From a virus: DNA of 64,000 nt. Both the position numbers and the translations under genes were made by a program. Positions 3,153 through 35,422 of the stretch are shown here, one piece after another. Numbering within the stretch: the stretch's first letter is position 1; each line of letters opens with the position of its first letter. A model generated the notes under the pieces. The model had not been told where the DNA came from. It saw only the letters and a program-made list of their open reading frames with translations, and did no database searches. The stretch lies in IMG/VR virus record IMGVR_UViG_3300042554_001855, positions 1 through 64,000 of that record; one strand, given 5' to 3'.

Positions 3153-3173
3153 AGGGGCGTTTCAGATATGAAT

Positions 3174-3201
3174 ATTATAAAGCATCAGGAGGCGTCTTCA
3201 A
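3174..3201 (-). promoter_or_regulatory. Candidate sigma-70 promoter
   Basis: On the minus strand TTGAAG (3196-3201), a 16-base spacer and TATAAT (3174-3179) precede the zinc-ribbon gene. The -35 box lies in the end of the upstream gene. The -10 is perfect, the -35 partial. Confidence 0.4.
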
Positions 3202-3622
3202 CGTCCTCTGTGCCAGTTTCGGAAGTGTCCTCGTCAGGCAACTCCTCATCTAAATCCACACCGTCCAATACTTCATCTGACCATTCTTTTACTCTTTCCA
3301 ACACTTCATCCATAGAATATGTTTCTACTTTACCAAGCTCAACGTCTTCTACCATTTGTAAAAGATATTCCAGAAACTCTTTGGGATAACATTCATCTTC
3401 ACCAAGAGAAGACCAGAACCAATCTCTACATTCTTCTTCTGGATCTTCTACTGTTCTGGGGAGAGCATAGTTATCATAGTTGGAAGTCATCAGGTCAGCC
3501 CAGATGCGAAATGTGATTCGCATACTCTGCCATCCAGTCATCCAACAATGACCAATCCAATACTCCCACCAGTTCAAGGTGGTTTTCTTTTTATCAGTTC
3601 CTTTAAGTGCTTTACTAAACAT
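3185..3622 (-). CDS. Hypothetical acidic protein, 145 aa
   Basis: ATG at 3620-3622 shares its A with the TGA of the preceding gene; a GTG 6 bases upstream is the alternative. The N-terminus is rich in tryptophan (NWWEYWIGHCWMTGW), then a region DWFWSSLGEDECYPKEFLEY, and the last 45 residues are very acidic. No family recognised. The acidic tail could mimic DNA or bind basic proteins, which is speculation. Confidence 0.6.
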   Translation of the reverse strand: MFSKALKGTDKKKTTLNWWEYWIGHCWMTGWQSMRITFRIWADLMTSNYDNYALPRTVEDPEEECRDWFWSSLGEDECYPKEFLEYLLQMVEDVELGKVETYSMDEVLERVKEWSDEVLDGVDLDEELPDEDTSETGTEDVEDAS

Positions 3623-28776: not shown

Positions 28777-30143
28777 GACTTATTAGCCTCTGGATTTATA
28801 CCAAATGTATCTCTAACTAATTTCATAGAAGTATAAGATGATTCTGTATCAAAGTGATGACACAGTTCTTTAATCATATATAGACCGCTTGTTTCCTCGT
28901 CCAATTCGTTTCCATCTTGAGAAGATATCTTTGGAAAATTGCATTTAATGACATCCCCTGCACTTAGATTTGTATTCAGAGGAACAACCATACTTAAAGT
29001 TTGAGTGAAAAGTATATTATACCTCATAATAGACTGAGATTGATACTTTTCTGGACTTGCATTCACTTCTTTAGATGGTTCTTTATTCAGAGTACCAACA
29101 TCAAGACACATTGTGAAGATTCTAGTTGGAGTTTCACCAAGATCTTTTGAACTACCAGAAGTTATTTTAGGAAGTTTTATTTTTTCGCCAAGATTACTTG
29201 TCTTATTAACATAGTCATTTAACTTAAATAATCCCTTTTGGGGATTTGTAAATTCAAACGTTAATGGATTAAAAAATATTCTGTAACTTGAATATGTGCC
29301 TAACTTAAGTTTCTCAATTAAGTTTTGATTCTTCTCTGTAGTATATTTCAAGATTTTAAAGTCGTTCTTTACAGCGTCACCCTTTTCATCATATGTTTCA
29401 ATGCTTTGACTATAAAGATAAACTGCTTTTGGTTTTTGTTTAATCAAATTATCAATTGACCTGAAATTAAAACCATCCTTGGTTTGATAGAATACAAATC
29501 CAGCGGTAGCATCACCTGAAGTAGCAGGAACACCTTTTGATGCTAGCCAGATTAAGACAGTAAATGGCTTACGCATATTACCAATAAATCCATACTTATT
29601 TGTTGTCCTCTCTATTGAATCATTAGTAAATTTGTCAGTCTTAAGGATATTTTTAAGAATTTGTTTTACAGAAGTATCAATACTATTGTCTGGGGCAAAC
29701 TTTTTTCCTACTCTTACTGTTTCATTTGTGATTGCTTCTCTTGAAGTAAGATGTAAAGTAAAAGCTTCTCTTTGAGATTCTGCAATCACATCAGTAATAC
29801 TTGAGACATACAAGTAATCTTTTGATGACTTGGAAAAATCAATGGCAATATTAGACTCGGTGTTAGGAGAAATTTTCAATCTAAGTCTCTCCCCACCCCT
29901 AAGAGGAAGACCATTATAAACAGACTGGGGATTCTTATCTGTGCTCCCATCAGGGTTAGCAGAAGGTATGCTATCACCAGTATTAATCATCTTCAAAGTC
30001 GCAGTGATTGTTGGCGAAAAGATATCTTCATAATAGTCAAAAGAAACTATTGAAGGCGTGATATCAACTGTTCTTTGCTGATCATTTGATTCTAGAATTG
30101 CTTCTTCAAACTTGGATGGGGATTGTGCTACTACTTGTGCCAT
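28773..30143 (-). CDS. 27: gp27-like baseplate hub protein
   Basis: 456 aa, located next to gp5 as in T4. N-terminal beta domain (TVDITPSIVSFDYYEDIFSP, ATLKMINTG) fits the tube-like fold of gp27; the C-terminus has a second tube-like domain (LSAGDVIKCNFPKIS, SGLYMIKELCHHFD). gp27 trimers adapt the threefold spike to the sixfold tail tube. It starts by sharing a base with the upstream stop. Assignment rests on order and overall pattern. Confidence 0.7.
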   Translation of the reverse strand: MAQVVAQSPSKFEEAILESNDQQRTVDITPSIVSFDYYEDIFSPTITATLKMINTGDSIPSANPDGSTDKNPQSVYNGLPLRGGERLRLKISPNTESNIAIDFSKSSKDYLYVSSITDVIAESQREAFTLHLTSREAITNETVRVGKKFAPDNSIDTSVKQILKNILKTDKFTNDSIERTTNKYGFIGNMRKPFTVLIWLASKGVPATSGDATAGFVFYQTKDGFNFRSIDNLIKQKPKAVYLYSQSIETYDEKGDAVKNDFKILKYTTEKNQNLIEKLKLGTYSSYRIFFNPLTFEFTNPQKGLFKLNDYVNKTSNLGEKIKLPKITSGSSKDLGETPTRIFTMCLDVGTLNKEPSKEVNASPEKYQSQSIMRYNILFTQTLSMVVPLNTNLSAGDVIKCNFPKISSQDGNELDEETSGLYMIKELCHHFDTESSYTSMKLVRDTFGINPEANKS

Positions 30144-32023
30144 TATAGATACGCTAAATCAGTTAAGAACTTTTGTTTGATAAAATTATTTAACACACTT
30201 GATGGTGGGCTTTGTGTGGTTTGTGATTCTTGTTCAAGAGAACGAGATCCAAACGATGCAGCGGCAGAATTCAATAATTGTGCTAATCCACTCAAATCCA
30301 TTTGTGGTCGTGTATCAACCACGCTTACAACATCTGGAGACATACTTGGTGTAATTCCAGATGCAACATCCATTGATGGAACACCAGATACAGAACTTGC
30401 TGTTGAACCTGCTGCACCATGAGAAACAGTAACTCCCCCCGTTCCAATAATTTCTGCTTCTCTACCATATCCACCACGATAATACACTGCACCAACTGCA
30501 AAAGGAAACTTAGTTGCCGATCCTACTTGAGATGGGAATGTTTGTTTTACTTTAGAATTGATTTCTTGCATATCAACAGCGGCACTACTTCTTCCACCAT
30601 GGGCTCTCTGCTCTGCAGCAATTAATCTTCTGATATTATCATCACTACCAGATGCATATTGTTTTATATTTCCATAAAATACAGTTGAACCTCTTGCAAG
30701 CATTGCTTTTGTTGCATGGAAAGCAACTTCACGAATACTTGCAAGTTGCTCTGCCGTTGGATTTGCTCCTTTATAATCTAAGTGGAAGTGAGTCGCATAA
30801 CTAGCCTCCCCTCTACCAGATCCACCCTGAATAAATCCCCCTGGTCCAACTTGTGGTATTAAACTCATTGTTCCAGTTGATACTGCAGGTGCTTGTTGTA
30901 GATTTGCAGATTGCTGCCCAGATGCATATGCTGCTGGAGATACATTTGCTGCTTTTTGTGCTTCTGGTAAAAATGACCTATATTTTCCAGACTTATAAAC
31001 ACTCCAAGGATTAAAATTAGAACCACCAGACAGAATGAATGCTGCCCTTGCATTAGTTAGAGGGTCTTTTAATTGCTCATAGGATGTTATTCCAAATTTT
31101 TTCAATCTTTCTGGGCCAAGGGACCCAATCATATTAATTTGCCATAAACCATAAGATAAGTCACGAGTCCTTGGATTGTCATTTACTACACCAGATCTTC
31201 CACCAGACTCTGCTTTTGCAACTGCTGCTGCAGTAACTGCATTTTGTTGACTAAATCCAGCTTGTTTTGCAACAGCAACTAATTGTTCAGTGGATAATGT
31301 TTCTCCAGCTCCTGGAAATTGAGATTCGCGTTCTGAGAATTGAGATTCTCCCTGAGTGCCCAATGGTGGTGCATTTTGACCACTTGCAATCCCTTCATTG
31401 AGAGATGTTGTCATCAATCTCAATGCGTCATCGATTGATGATGACATATCAGATAGATTTTGATTGAGTTGTCCAAATGTATCTTTTACTCTATTCGATG
31501 TGTCAAAGAAATCAAATGACATAATGTTTTGGGCAACGGCACCAAGAAGATTGAACATATTACCAACAAATCCAATTGCACCCATAAAAAACTGTTTAAT
31601 AATTGCCACTCCCTTATAAATTCTGGCAACAAATTCTTTTGCCATTCCAATCCAAGTTGGTAAGTTTCTTAGTAACCATCCCACTCCCAAATATGCAATC
31701 GCAGATAAAATCCTTCCCAAAAATCCTTTACCACTGTTGAGGATAGATTTCTCAGTAGCAAATCCTGGAGAAAGGATAGAACCTAGACTTGATGCTTCAA
31801 GTTGATCTTCTGCTTCTTTCTTTCTTAAATTATCCTGTCTTTTTTGAAAGAGACCTTTACTTCTGAATACTGCTTCACTTTTTATCTTAGTTCTATTTAA
31901 AATAACTCTTTTAGTATCACTAATTACTGTTCTTGTATTAGAAAGACTTCTTCTCATGTTTATAAACGTGGAAGAAATCTTATTGATTGAACTAGTTCCA
32001 GCAGATAAACTTAAAACTGCCAT
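30143..32023 (-). CDS. Tape-measure/hub protein with lytic transglycosylase domain
   Basis: 626 aa. Residues 1-75: basic coiled coil (TRTVISDTKRVILNRTKIK). About 95-180: hydrophobic helices (LSAIAYLGVGWLLRNLP, FFMGAIGFVGNMF), as in tape-measure proteins that insert into the host membrane. About 245-360: a soluble lytic transglycosylase-like domain with catalytic Glu in AKAESGG (about 272) and YGLWQINM. C-terminal part has THFHLDY and AHGGRSSAAVDM, perhaps a second peptidoglycan-active module. Position (after gp26, before gp27) is that of T4 gp29. It likely supplies the murein-degrading activity that gp5 lacks here. Confidence 0.7.
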   Translation of the reverse strand: MAVLSLSAGTSSINKISSTFINMRRSLSNTRTVISDTKRVILNRTKIKSEAVFRSKGLFQKRQDNLRKKEAEDQLEASSLGSILSPGFATEKSILNSGKGFLGRILSAIAYLGVGWLLRNLPTWIGMAKEFVARIYKGVAIIKQFFMGAIGFVGNMFNLLGAVAQNIMSFDFFDTSNRVKDTFGQLNQNLSDMSSSIDDALRLMTTSLNEGIASGQNAPPLGTQGESQFSERESQFPGAGETLSTEQLVAVAKQAGFSQQNAVTAAAVAKAESGGRSGVVNDNPRTRDLSYGLWQINMIGSLGPERLKKFGITSYEQLKDPLTNARAAFILSGGSNFNPWSVYKSGKYRSFLPEAQKAANVSPAAYASGQQSANLQQAPAVSTGTMSLIPQVGPGGFIQGGSGRGEASYATHFHLDYKGANPTAEQLASIREVAFHATKAMLARGSTVFYGNIKQYASGSDDNIRRLIAAEQRAHGGRSSAAVDMQEINSKVKQTFPSQVGSATKFPFAVGAVYYRGGYGREAEIIGTGGVTVSHGAAGSTASSVSGVPSMDVASGITPSMSPDVVSVVDTRPQMDLSGLAQLLNSAAASFGSRSLEQESQTTQSPPSSVLNNFIKQKFLTDLAYL

Positions 32024-32024
32024 C

Positions 32025-33635
32025 TTACATCACCACATTATAACTTAATTGAGAGTACATAGTGTAAAAATTATTAGGATTACTCGAAGATATATGGGGA
32101 ACATTGTTAGAAGAATTTCCTTTTCTTAATGATGGTGCTGGTGGTTTTTGCTTCATCTCTGGTTGTGTCAAAATAACCTGAGGAGCTGGTTTAGTTAAAG
32201 GTCCTAATGGTGCATTTTCTGTTTGCTTTTGTGATATTTTTGCTTCTGGAGACACTGGAGTAACAGAAAGAGCTCTTTCTTCAGCAGTTTCTCCTGGAAG
32301 TAAAGGTCTCATTGTTGGTATATTTTTATATAAGTCTAAGTATCCTTTTTCTTCTTCTGTTGGAGTTACTTCTGGTGCAGCGGTTCCAACATTCATATTA
32401 AGATCTCCATTTACCCCTGGAGTCATTGGAAGCATAGGTGTTGCTGCTGGAGCTTCTGGTGTTTGTGAAGTTGAACCTGGTGGTGGAATATTTGGTTTAT
32501 TTGGCTTTAATTGTTGCTGTGGAGTTGAAGAAGTTGGAGTTTGTTTTTGTTCTTGTCCCCCACCTGCCATTCTAGATAATTCAAGTCCAACTCTTCCAGC
32601 GGCTGCAAATCCTCCGATTACTGGAAACATAGATAACGCACTAAGAGCTGCTCCTGGCAAATCTCCTTGACTCAAATCATAACCTGTCGAGACTGCACCA
32701 AGAGCAGTTCCAAGACCAGGGGTAAAACCACCAGCAACTCTCCCACCTCCAGCTGCTGCAGCACCGCCACCTTTCATAAAATTAAAGAACTTAGTCATTA
32801 AGTTCGTGCTACCTGTTACAGTAGGTCTTGCACCTCTGGCAGCGGCATTGGCAGCGGCAGGTGCTCCTCTACTGAATAATCCAGCAACACCTCTACCTAA
32901 AGCACCCAGACCTCTGAATGGCAGTAAAATCAGTTTAGCAATTAAACCACCAACTTTAAAAACTACACCATTGAGTAATCTTAGGAAAACAGCAAATCCA
33001 ACATTAATCGCTAATAAACCAGCACCAGCATAAAGTAAGTTCTTGAGGATACTATTCTTAATCTCATCAAAAACTTTAAAATTTTTATCCTTGTATGCCC
33101 TTAATAATTCTATTCCTTGAAGTGTGAACCACCCACCAAGAAGAGTGAATATTGCGCTCTTAATCCTATCAAATATACCCTCAGTCTGCTCAATAACTTT
33201 TTTTACTGGACTGATAAGAGCATTTTGTATTTTCTTTTCTAATTCGTTTTCACGACCTCTTTTTATATCTCTATCAACTATCTTTTGCTCATTATCTTGT
33301 TCTGTTTGAATTCTTTTTTGCTCAGCAATAGTTTCTCCTCTGAGAAGTCTAGCAATATCTCTAACACCATTGGTTAAATTTAAAACTTCTACACGAACAA
33401 ATTCAATCTGCTTTGAAATTGTTCCAAGAGAAGATTGATTTGCCTTTACAATTGCTAAACTTTGAGTGCTTGCTAAATCATTTCCATCTTGCCTAACTAA
33501 AGCACCACCACGACCACGAAACACAGAACTGGAAACAGTTGCTCTACGGAATAGTGCTTTTCTGGCTTCAGCAGACAGGTAAGATCCTGTTCTAGGATCT
33601 ACACCTGTTTGTGCTATGGTTATTGCATCAGCCAT
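32025..33635 (-). CDS. Tape-measure-like hub protein, 536 aa
   Basis: N-terminal third is helical and charged (LGTISKQIEFVRVEVLNL, then a long Glu/Lys coiled coil). Residues about 150-260 contain several hydrophobic segments (SAIFTLLGGWFTLQGIELL, LLYAGAGLLAINVGFAVFL), followed by Gly/Ala-rich linkers and a Pro/Gln/Thr-rich C-terminus. This is a tape-measure or internal hub profile. It overlaps the frameshift ORF at 33628-33804 by 8 bases, giving chaperone-then-tape-measure order. Counterpart of part of T4 gp29, or a cyanophage-specific companion. Confidence 0.6.
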   Translation of the reverse strand: MADAITIAQTGVDPRTGSYLSAEARKALFRRATVSSSVFRGRGGALVRQDGNDLASTQSLAIVKANQSSLGTISKQIEFVRVEVLNLTNGVRDIARLLRGETIAEQKRIQTEQDNEQKIVDRDIKRGRENELEKKIQNALISPVKKVIEQTEGIFDRIKSAIFTLLGGWFTLQGIELLRAYKDKNFKVFDEIKNSILKNLLYAGAGLLAINVGFAVFLRLLNGVVFKVGGLIAKLILLPFRGLGALGRGVAGLFSRGAPAAANAAARGARPTVTGSTNLMTKFFNFMKGGGAAAAGGGRVAGGFTPGLGTALGAVSTGYDLSQGDLPGAALSALSMFPVIGGFAAAGRVGLELSRMAGGGQEQKQTPTSSTPQQQLKPNKPNIPPPGSTSQTPEAPAATPMLPMTPGVNGDLNMNVGTAAPEVTPTEEEKGYLDLYKNIPTMRPLLPGETAEERALSVTPVSPEAKISQKQTENAPLGPLTKPAPQVILTQPEMKQKPPAPSLRKGNSSNNVPHISSSNPNNFYTMYSQLSYNVVM

Positions 33636-33804
33636 TCGTTATGCCGTTTTTAAGATTTTCTTCTTCTATAAACTGCTGAAGAAGAGAGATATAAATTTCT
33701 CTCTCCCAAGGTATCATATTTTCTAACTCTGTCAATGAATATTTATGATGCTGTATGAGGGCAAAATTTGTTTTGTAGTATGACTCAAGGGAATCATGAG
33801 CCAT
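33628..33804 (-). CDS. Small ORF in the -1 frame after gp26, candidate frameshift extension
   Basis: 58 codons (MAHDSLESYYKTNFALIQHH, later MIPWEREIYISLL). The IPWEREIY pattern resembles the extension part (T) of G/GT tail chaperones. It can be read alone from its ATG at 33802-33804, 2 bases after the gp26 stop, or fused to gp26: the -1 frame is open from the slippery site through Arg-Val-Gly into this ATG. A fusion would be about 298 aa. By place it corresponds to T4 gp51, which acts in hub assembly. Confidence 0.65.
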   Translation of the reverse strand: MAHDSLESYYKTNFALIQHHKYSLTELENMIPWEREIYISLLQQFIEEENLKNGITNG

Positions 33805-33819
33805 CCCTACGCGAAAAAA
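33781..33819 (-). promoter_or_regulatory. Candidate programmed -1 ribosomal frameshift site
   Basis: Minus strand T TTT TTC (33819-33813), with TTT and TTC as zero-frame codons of gp26, then GCG and TAG. After a -1 slip the reading is CGC GTA GGG ATG GCT, entering the 58-codon ORF with no stop. Nine bases after the heptamer a 7-bp stem can form, 33803-33797 with 33787-33781 (one G-U pair), loop 9. Spacing fits known stimulators. Confidence 0.6.
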
Positions 33820-34523
33820 CTTGTTAGACCCTCCAAAACAACTTCACTTTCAACTTTTGTTTCTGGATTTTTGATTTTGATTGTATGAGAAAGTTTGGGC
33901 ATTGTTTCAAAGAAAGTCTCAATCTCTTTGAATTGTTTCGAACTCAATTGATCAACAAATTCAAATAATTCTTTCTTAGTACAATCAGAAGCAGACCAAG
34001 ATTCTTCTTCAGAATAGACTTGCTCAATACATCCACTAATCAACTCAAAAGTATCATCAACCGTTACATCAGTAATATTAAAGTTGTTTTTAATAAACTG
34101 ACTCAATGAAGGATATCTCATCCTCATTGTTAGATTATCATCTAACTTAATATCTCTGGTATGATTTGGATTGGTTTGAACTTGGATTTCGTCCAAGTTA
34201 ATTGACACTGGAACTTGAGTAACTTCATCATCAGGGCAGGTGATTAGAACATCTACTGTCTCACCTACTGACTTTCCTCTGATGTTAAGGAACAGATACT
34301 CAATATCAAAAGTAGCCAGGTCTTCTACTTTTACACCTTTTGTCAAAATGCAATTTGAGATAACTGTTTTAATTGCATTTGTGATTTGCTTATCATCTTG
34401 ACTTTCCATTGCGATGATAAGAATTTTTTCTTCTTTAACAAGAAATGGTCTATATTTAATTGTTTTTTTAGAAGATGGTAATGTCAACTCATAAGTCGGA
34501 GTTGCAATTGTTGGTAAAGGCAT
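33807..34523 (-). CDS. 26: gp26-like baseplate hub assembly protein
   Basis: 238 aa. The N-terminus (TYELTLPSSKKTIKYRPFLV, KEEKILIIAMES) and the DDNLTMRMRYPS segment fit the T4 gp26 family (T4 gp26 is 208 aa). T4 gp26 is needed for hub assembly but its structural role is unclear. Its last codons carry a slippery heptamer, so it may be the G-like half of a tail-assembly chaperone pair. It is followed by the tape-measure-like genes and preceded by a late-type element. Confidence 0.8.
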   Translation of the reverse strand: MPLPTIATPTYELTLPSSKKTIKYRPFLVKEEKILIIAMESQDDKQITNAIKTVISNCILTKGVKVEDLATFDIEYLFLNIRGKSVGETVDVLITCPDDEVTQVPVSINLDEIQVQTNPNHTRDIKLDDNLTMRMRYPSLSQFIKNNFNITDVTVDDTFELISGCIEQVYSEEESWSASDCTKKELFEFVDQLSSKQFKEIETFFETMPKLSHTIKIKNPETKVESEVVLEGLTSFFA

Positions 34524-34549: not shown

Positions 34550-34557
34550 TATTTATG
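34550..34557 (-). promoter_or_regulatory. Late-type promoter element CATAAATA
   Basis: Minus-strand CATAAATA 27 bases before the gp26 ATG, overlapping the stop of the gp54-like gene. Confidence 0.4.
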
Positions 34558-35422
34558 AACCAAATCCTGGTGGATATTGTCCAATTTCTCCAGCAACAAA
34601 GTCAGGTTTTTGATTCCAATCAATACTACTCCCAGTAGTTGCCGCACCCTCTCCTCCATAAATTGGATAAGATTGTGATAATCTAATAGCGTTCGCTTCA
34701 TCCGCACTCAGTGGTGCGACTTTACCAGATGCATACAGTAAAGATGATTCTCCAGTTTTATTATTATCAACTCCTCTTTTTTGGTCAATGGCAGAAATTG
34801 GCCCACAAACATAGCGAGTGAATTCAAAAGTTGCAGATGCAGTCAAAGTTCTAGAGCTATCATATGAAACATTAATATTACCAACATTAGAGGGGAACAT
34901 TCCAAAAAATGTGTATTCAATATTTTTACGATAGTCTCTATCAAACTTAACGATTTTTGTCGATTCCATCTTATAGTATTCGGGGTATTGCATTCTGATA
35001 AAATAATTCTTTCTTCCTTGACTGACAGCATCAGCATTTGTTCCAACTGGATTATGAGATCCGCTTGCAATAAATTCTGCCCAGTGCTCTAGAAATTTCA
35101 ATACTTTATAATCACTATCAATATAGAACCCTAAATTAACTTGCCCATAAATTCTACTATGGGCAATCTTTTCTTGAATGCCCATGTAGTTTCCTGCAAT
35201 ATTTGCAGTTGCCAAACTTCCATATGGAAGTTCTGCAGAGTAACATAACAATCCAACATCACCGCTTATAAATCTAGAATCAACACCTCTGTTAGCCAAA
35301 TAAGATGATAACGCACCATCTTTTGGTGGTGCTCCAAACTTGACTTCATAATGTGAGGTTTGAGCTAGATTTGTTAATACTCTTTTAAATTCTGATATTT
35401 TTCTTGGTCTAGGTGCTGGCAC
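34553..35422 (-). CDS. 54: gp54-like baseplate-tail tube initiator
   Basis: 289 aa with a GTG start at 35420-35422 (MPAPRPRKISEFKRVLTNLA). The pattern AQTSHYEVKFG, KFLEHWAEFI, MQYPEYYKM, KFDRDYRKNIEYTFFGMFP and FEFTRYVCG matches the cyanophage gp54 family, which shares the tail-tube fold with gp19 and gp48. gp54 caps the baseplate and starts tube polymerisation. T4 gp54 is 320 aa. Diverges from the gp4 gene; a late-type element at 35453-35460 lies upstream. Confidence 0.7.
   Translation of the reverse strand: MPAPRPRKISEFKRVLTNLAQTSHYEVKFGAPPKDGALSSYLANRGVDSRFISGDVGLLCYSAELPYGSLATANIAGNYMGIQEKIAHSRIYGQVNLGFYIDSDYKVLKFLEHWAEFIASGSHNPVGTNADAVSQGRKNYFIRMQYPEYYKMESTKIVKFDRDYRKNIEYTFFGMFPSNVGNINVSYDSSRTLTASATFEFTRYVCGPISAIDQKRGVDNNKTGESSLLYASGKVAPLSADEANAIRLSQSYPIYGGEGAATTGSSIDWNQKPDFVAGEIGQYPPGFGS

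Follow-up and report, generated by a model that had tools for sequence, protein, structure and literature searches.

The gp26 gene of the cyanophage analysed here very probably yields both the short and the long tail assembly chaperone (gp26 and gp26-51), the long form being produced by -1 ribosomal frameshifting at the slippery heptamer T TTT TTC. The phage is represented by a stretch of 64,000 nucleotides (the window), positions 1 to 64,000 of the IMG/VR record IMGVR_UViG_3300042554_001855, and the features discussed below are collected in Table 1. The assignment rests on sequence, namely the site and its phase, their conservation, an upstream element, a covarying stem, and a pre-fused homologue in T4, together with a predicted fold. 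In the proposed mechanism, two phenylalanine tRNAs in the P and A sites would slip back by one base at T TTT TTC on a fraction of the ribosomes, aided by the upstream Shine-Dalgarno-like GGAGG and the downstream stem-loop. Slipped ribosomes would miss the TAG and read into the 58-codon open reading frame (ORF), giving a gp26-51 fusion of about 298 aa (TAC-NC, gpGT-like); the majority would terminate and release gp26 alone as the short chaperone (TAC-N, lambda gpG-like). During tail assembly, both would wrap the tape measure protein and recruit tube subunits. We infer that slippage occurs, and likewise its rate and the binding partners of gp26 and gp26-51.

Table 1. Features at the gp26 junction and in its neighbourhood (window coordinates)
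Feature	Position	Strand	Basis
gp26, 238 aa, putative short tail assembly chaperone (gpG-like)	33807..34523	-	PF12322 E=5.9e-77, full profile; phrog_150 baseplate hub
Zero-frame stop TAG of gp26	33807..33809	-	sequence
Slippery heptamer T TTT TTC	33813..33819	-	in gp26 frame, codon boundaries AGT/TTT/TTC
GGAGG, internal Shine-Dalgarno-like element	33830..33834	-	exactly 10 nt 5' of heptamer
-1 frame extension, RVG + 58 aa ("gp51"), putative C-terminal part of long chaperone	33628..33813	-	phrog_634 E=1.6e-27; alignable with C-terminus of T4-type gp51
Stem-loop 3' of heptamer	33780..33804	-	arms 33797-33804 and 33780-33787
Tail tube protein, directly upstream of gp26	34553..35422	-	PF23849 E=1.5e-13; phrog_45 tail tube E=2.9e-37
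536-aa ORF overlapping gp51 end, candidate first half of tape measure	32025..33635	-	position and two hydrophobic segments
626-aa ORF carrying a lytic transglycosylase domain, candidate for the tape measure, whole or second half	30143..32023	-	PF18896 E=1e-19; one hydrophobic segment

On the minus strand, the junction reads ...TTG GAG GGT CTA ACA AGT TTT TTC GCG TAG GG ATG GCT CAT.... An earlier note on this DNA had placed the heptamer in the zero frame, two codons before the gp26 stop; the frame is correct, and the distance is right only if TTC is counted, since GCG is the single sense codon between the heptamer and TAG. The same note had read the -1 frame through Arg-Val-Gly into the 58-codon ORF, and this reading holds: from the heptamer the frame runs FF-R-V-G-MAHDSLESYYKTNF... 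(the FF-R-V-G-MAHD junction) without a stop to 33628 (-). The ORF also has an ATG of its own at 33802-33804 (-), 2 nt past the gp26 stop. Among the 56 ATG-initiated window ORFs of at least 100 aa, 2 combine an XXXYYYZ heptamer in the last 10 codons with an open -1 frame and 1 carries a T6 site, and gp26 is the only one that also has a -1 extension of at least 40 codons. One further ORF with a site and a long -1 extension appears when the cut-off is lowered to 60 aa (117 window ORFs). This ORF, of 73 codons at window positions 3168-3389 (+), has an in-frame T TTG GGA at its end and a 96-codon -1 extension, which may be chance. Over 19,517 codon positions, the heptamer T TTT TTC itself stands in frame twice.

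Two sets of relatives were compared. The close set comprises 80 IMG/VR contigs with gp26 identities of 70 to 100%, kept from at least 595 matches, and includes one contig (L001) whose gp26 is 100% identical to that of the window. Among the matches listed, 79 of these 80 contigs have T TTT TTC in phase, and 77 have a -1 frame open for at least 50 codons; two contigs (L003 and L012) end soon past the junction. The further set consists of 33 loci from phages without the T4-type gene pair (L083-L098, L110-L116, and L118-L127), with some near-duplicates and with three loci fairly near the window (L119, L125, and L126). Either T TTT TTC or T TTT TTT lies in frame within the last few gp26 codons in 30 of the 33, and from there the open -1 frame of these loci runs on through a gp51-like stretch. 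Loci with T6Y include phages of Pelagibacter, Stenotrophomonas, Sinorhizobium, Ochrobactrum, Agrobacterium, Aeromonas, Cronobacter, Vibrio, and Nitratidesulfovibrio in addition to marine cyanophages. The heptamer and the -1 phase, on whose conservation the earlier note had made its prediction depend, are both kept in these 79 close contigs and 30 further loci, and the prediction is not refuted on this point.

Phe-Phe is invariant in a 17-row alignment of gp26, and the heptamer might simply be a by-product of this required pair near the end of the protein, meaningless for decoding. We give this explanation next to no probability. In the non-redundant rows (window included), the pair is written TTT TTC in 72 of 73, the one other row being L066. 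Codon usage would lead one to expect a mixture, as Phe codons elsewhere in the same genes are TTT in 573 cases and TTC in 193. The preceding codon is AGT, TCT, GCT, AAT, or GAT, so that its third base stays T (72/72 rows) while the amino acid changes among Ser, Ala, Asn, and Asp; Ala codons elsewhere in these genes end in T in only 27% of cases. The 73 rows of the codon tally share ancestry and hence are not independent trials. The stop codon of gp26 varies over the same number of non-redundant rows (TAG 41, TAA 19, and TGA 13), and the -1 frame past the stop is conserved as protein. In T4-type gp26 genes, which are without the extension, the matching Phe-Phe is coded TTC TTT in 8 of 12 loci and T6Y is found in 0 of 12; slippery coding is therefore gone where the shift is not needed. 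Across the 113 loci counted, the 4 without the heptamer (L066, L087, L098, and L127) have no Phe-Phe at that place, which likewise argues against a by-product.

A second explanation holds that gp51 is a separate small protein, the "baseplate hub assembly catalyst" of the T4 literature, which ribosomes re-initiating past the gp26 stop would translate from a start codon of its own. The ATG 2 nt past the stop in the window phage is in keeping with this, as are the TAATG or TGATG overlaps of some lineages (CZ01, YB07, D503, and K475) and the annotation of 21 non-T4-type records, all of which list gp26 and gp51 as two genes or omit gp51 (joined coding sequence, 0/21). We regard a separate gp51 as very improbable. 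A nearby start is lacking in some relatives. Four close contigs that are near-identical at the junction (L004, L005, L009, and L018) offer the second ORF no start codon of any kind in the 70 nt past the stop; its first TTG comes at 74 nt and its first ATG at 92 nt. In 16 of the 33 further loci, the second ORF has its earliest ATG, GTG, or TTG 23 to 89 nt past the stop or has none (SRB7757), which would cut off conserved residues. Re-initiation also leaves the heptamer unexplained, and T4 gp51 carries the fused form. In three annotated phages (Aeromonas phage G2, Cronobacter phage LPCS28, and S-CAM4; L111, L112, and L124), gp51 is missing from the annotation despite a heptamer and an open -1 frame.

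The -1 signals of the dnaX type consist of an internal Shine-Dalgarno-like element about 10 nt upstream, a slippery heptamer, and a stem-loop a few nucleotides downstream. The window site has the same three parts; it differs from dnaX in the heptamer (U UUU UUC as opposed to A AAA AAG) and in belonging to an unrelated gene. The arrangement GGAGG-N10-TTTTTTC occurs once in the window against 0.02 expected matches. Within 75 non-redundant close relatives (window included; L066 left out), GGAGG stands at exactly 10 nt in 45, and in the remainder of gp26 in the same rows it occurs at a rate of 5 per 51,450 nt. The Glu codon at this place is GAG in 64/75 rows versus 501/1786 elsewhere, and the conserved Glu-Gly forces part of the G content here. 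Exact GGAGG is absent from 30 of the 75 close rows and from most of 21 other lineages, where looser purine-rich versions are found. As an initiation signal for gp51 the element was rejected, since it lies 25 nt before the ATG and is too far away to serve, a distance that also counts against an independently started gp51.

The third part of the signal had been described in the earlier note as a 7-bp stem 9 bases after the heptamer. The stem is present, with other dimensions: 8 bp including one G.U pair, beginning 8 nt past the heptamer. Folding energy over the 60 nt past the heptamer is only moderately below that of shuffles in the window (z -2.0). In the close group, the stem starts 4 to 8 nt after the heptamer and reaches up to 12 uninterrupted pairs in some relatives (L024). 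The stem set came to 74 junctions once L066, duplicates, and loci retaining under 60 nt had been dropped; 70 of these were aligned for the covariation test, with the isolates S-PM2, Syn19, P-HM1, and S-CAM4 (other stems or a weak one) omitted. Over the 70 aligned close junctions, 92.1% of the cells are paired, a figure that holds for the close group only, and 31 cells have double-sided changes; none of 500 shuffles reaches the observed pairing, the double-sided cell count, or the covariation score. The double-sided changes are located in only 2 of 10 stem pairs (6/500 shuffles as high), and the number of pair types in the stem, with 6 further types, is not above shuffles (74/500 as high). A control structure slid by -2 has 4 double-sided pairs, more than the real stem, with 34.7% of the cells paired and 8 double-sided cells. 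RNAalifold proposed the same stem with 7 pairs.

In the main covarying pair, one base is the third of an Ala codon, which the -1 frame leaves free, and its partner is the middle one of a codon for Glu, Ala, or Val; the types of this pair are U-A in 36 junctions, G-C in 27, A-U in 2, G-U in 1, and other in 4 (n=70). Its type changes at least 10 times on the gp26 tree (76 rows, L066 left out). Independent supported pairs on this tree agree in 4 of 4 cases, a number too small for significance (p = 0.125). A different strong stem occupies the same place in S-PM2 (z -4.7), P-HM1 has another (z -2.6), and S-N03 and S-B68 have other stems as well (z -5.5 and -4.5). The stem is weak or not clear, with z from 0 upward, in L090, L094, LPCS28, SRB7757, HTVC008M, and Syn19.

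A run of six T could also act in transcription, where slippage on T6 would add or remove a base in the mRNA and the ribosome would not shift. A 5-T variant does exist in the deposited sequence of L098 (about 3250), which has one T fewer in the heptamer than the near-identical L097; this missing T is probably a homopolymer sequencing error. Six T is short for polymerase slippage, and a ribosomal shift is what the codon phase, the fixed 10-nt spacing of GGAGG, and the covarying stem are typical of; slippage in transcription needs none of them. Slippage by the polymerase is thus highly improbable, more so than a separately started gp51.

The comparison with T4 gives independent support to the G/GT reading. 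The window gp26 matches PF12322 (T4 baseplate protein) at 258.7 bits against a curated cut-off of 24.5, and phrog_150 matches gp26 over its first 232 positions and the 58-aa ORF at its end. No Pfam family matches the 58-aa ORF over cut-off, and PHROGs assigns it to phrog_634, "baseplate hub assembly catalyst" (cyanophage gp51). T4 gp51 has a PF12322 match over residues 1-201 and a C-terminal part that matches phrog_634, and the tail of T4-type gp51 is colinear with the cyanophage extension. The 58-aa ORF thus corresponds to the C-terminal end of T4 gp51, which is itself a full-length gp26-like domain followed by this tail. Two PF12322 genes are present in T4 and in Aeromonas phage 25; the 10 remaining records of the search have a single one each, as does the record from which the window comes. 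No second full-length copy was found in the latter, which has 123,211 bases and may be incomplete. The heptamer is present in 8 of the 10 single-copy records, absent from D503, and replaced by a fused gene in L066. With gp51 pre-fused and two gene copies, T4 thus uses two genes where the window phage very probably uses a frameshift: the proteins share family PF12322 and the same C-terminal tail, whereas T4 has two divergent genes, 26 and 51, with no heptamer and the window phage has one gene. In a tree of 39 domains, T4-type gp26, T4-type gp51, and the single-copy group each fall on one side of a branch, with supports of 99 and 100 for the first two and of 93 for the third, which falls short of the starred level. 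The tree is unrooted, and from the wider spread of frameshifting we infer that it came first and the duplication later.

AlphaFold2 models of the window gp26 (pLDDT 86.0) and of the in-frame fusion in L066 (pLDDT 89.9) were compared with solved structures. For the gp26 model, the highest Z, 7.9, is shared by 3fgx and the HK97 tail assembly chaperone 2ob9 (84 aligned residues, 3.8 A, tied first of 839 chains aligned); 3klu (YqbN; Z 7.2) comes next, followed by 5ir0 at 5.5 and others at 4.1 or less. The fusion model gave 3fgx (Z 7.5) and 2ob9 (Z 7.3) before a drop to 3.6. The likeness to 2ob9, 3fgx, and 3klu is one of fold over about residues 1-96 of gp26, with about 150 more residues uncovered and identities of 5-9%. 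These models support a chaperone-like N-terminal domain in gp26, at Z values below 8 that are no proof and could reflect a common arrangement. Foldseek found nothing at E 0.001 or better for the fusion model against the PDB, and the chaperone folds surfaced only with a second-look aligner; querying solved structures by sequence, whether with gp26 alone or with an alignment of gp26-51, returned no credible relative. In a viral structure library, the best 50 of 58 rows at E <=0.001 were baseplate-hub, uncharacterised, or unnamed phage proteins and pointed to no new function. The equation of gp26 and its extension with G and GT, made in the earlier note, gains from the pre-fused gp26+51 of T4 gp51, the one versus two gene copies, and the chaperone-like fold.

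That note had also called the next gene tape-measure-like; this candidate label has its basis here in the position and hydrophobic segments of the ORFs that follow gp51, and the 536-aa ORF has no Pfam or PHROGs match beyond a weak one to phrog_3405. The candidate tape measure region (30143-33635, -) consists of two ORFs of 536 and 626 aa, as against one long annotated ORF after gp51 in S-N03 and MC09.

The exceptions to the heptamer are few. In the further set, a canonical heptamer was not found in 3 of 33 loci, the Vibrio phages D503 and K475 and the L098 locus discussed above. In D503 (L087:3700-3900) and K475 (L127:2700-2905), gp26 and gp51 are in -1 phase with a TAATG and no canonical slippery heptamer; a scan of viral contigs with the D503 gp26 found no relative, and the heptamer-less lineage stays at these two phages. 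In L066 (3001-3891), gp26 and gp51 share one frame through a 2-nt deletion (TTTTTTCGG in L045, TTTTTGG in L066). This 236-kb contig otherwise has matching neighbouring genes. With a single PF12322 gene in its record, L066 can be read for the long form alone, and the short form would be missing. Poor assembly was considered for L066 and checked: 11 of 13 L045 ORF translations, taken from both strands and some of them surely not genes, match L066 in single stretches at 73-94% identity. The fusion is not obviously an artefact, as far as one contig can show.

A broader scenario can be put forward tentatively, and we hold it to be somewhat less probable than its negation. In cyanophages near the window, the ratio of short to long form might be fixed by a dnaX-like signal in three parts: GGAGG placed exactly 10 nt upstream, the heptamer U UUU UUC, and a stem kept by pairing of the Ala third base with the Glu/Ala/Val middle base. 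Gene duplication might have taken the place of frameshifting in the T4 branch, and the ratio might be controlled otherwise in at least one lineage (D503/K475).

A 2016 review (PMC5009743) describes how lambda obtains gpGT, a minor long form of gpG with a chaperone role, when ribosomes shift to -1 shortly before a small tail gene ends, and states that this type of frameshift is conserved in long-tailed phages "except T4." The proposed gp26-51 is like gpGT in both the place of the shift and the minor long form, and unlike it in that the gp26 family has no direct Pfam or PHROGs link to gpG beyond a weak match to the chaperone family phrog_11820 (E=0.021). The slippery site of lambda differs from T TTT TTC. 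Separate short and fused long genes in some T4-like phages are mentioned in the PRFect papers, and poly-T signals in TAC-N genes of T4-like phages in the Adele paper. T4 gp51 is described as required yet not in the particle (PMC3004832), and Sullivan et al. 2010 (PMC3037559) remark that cyanophage and marine vibriophage gp51 are without the first ~200 residues of other gp51. Their short gp51 would be a consequence of the frameshift.

The window phage is very probably a well-supported ordinary case of a known mechanism and not a new mechanism. Vladimirov, Gautam and Davidson (2022, Virology 566:9-15) reportedly identified these chaperone genes already; several T4-like groups are said to retain frameshifting, and T4 is said to encode its two forms, short and long, as genes 26 and 51. 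The earlier note had known of no such description for gp26, and with T4-like cases already identified its claim of novelty is not upheld. The detail of GGAGG, heptamer, and stem may be new: among the papers that it covered, a literature search found no report of the GGAGG element or the covarying stem at this site.

Collectively, the cyanophage "baseplate hub assembly catalyst gp51" is indicated as the frameshifted end of a tail assembly chaperone and not an independent gene, and record annotations would therefore need a joined coding sequence. As a modest addition to the known mechanism, the present analysis contributes the signal in three parts, the contrasting TTC TTT coding of the T4 branch, and the phages that depart from the pattern, D503 and K475 (heptamer-less) and L066 (fused in frame). 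GGAGG, heptamer, and stem together form a concrete signal that is open to mutation tests, and frameshifting and gene duplication would offer a clean contrast between two ways to the same protein pair.
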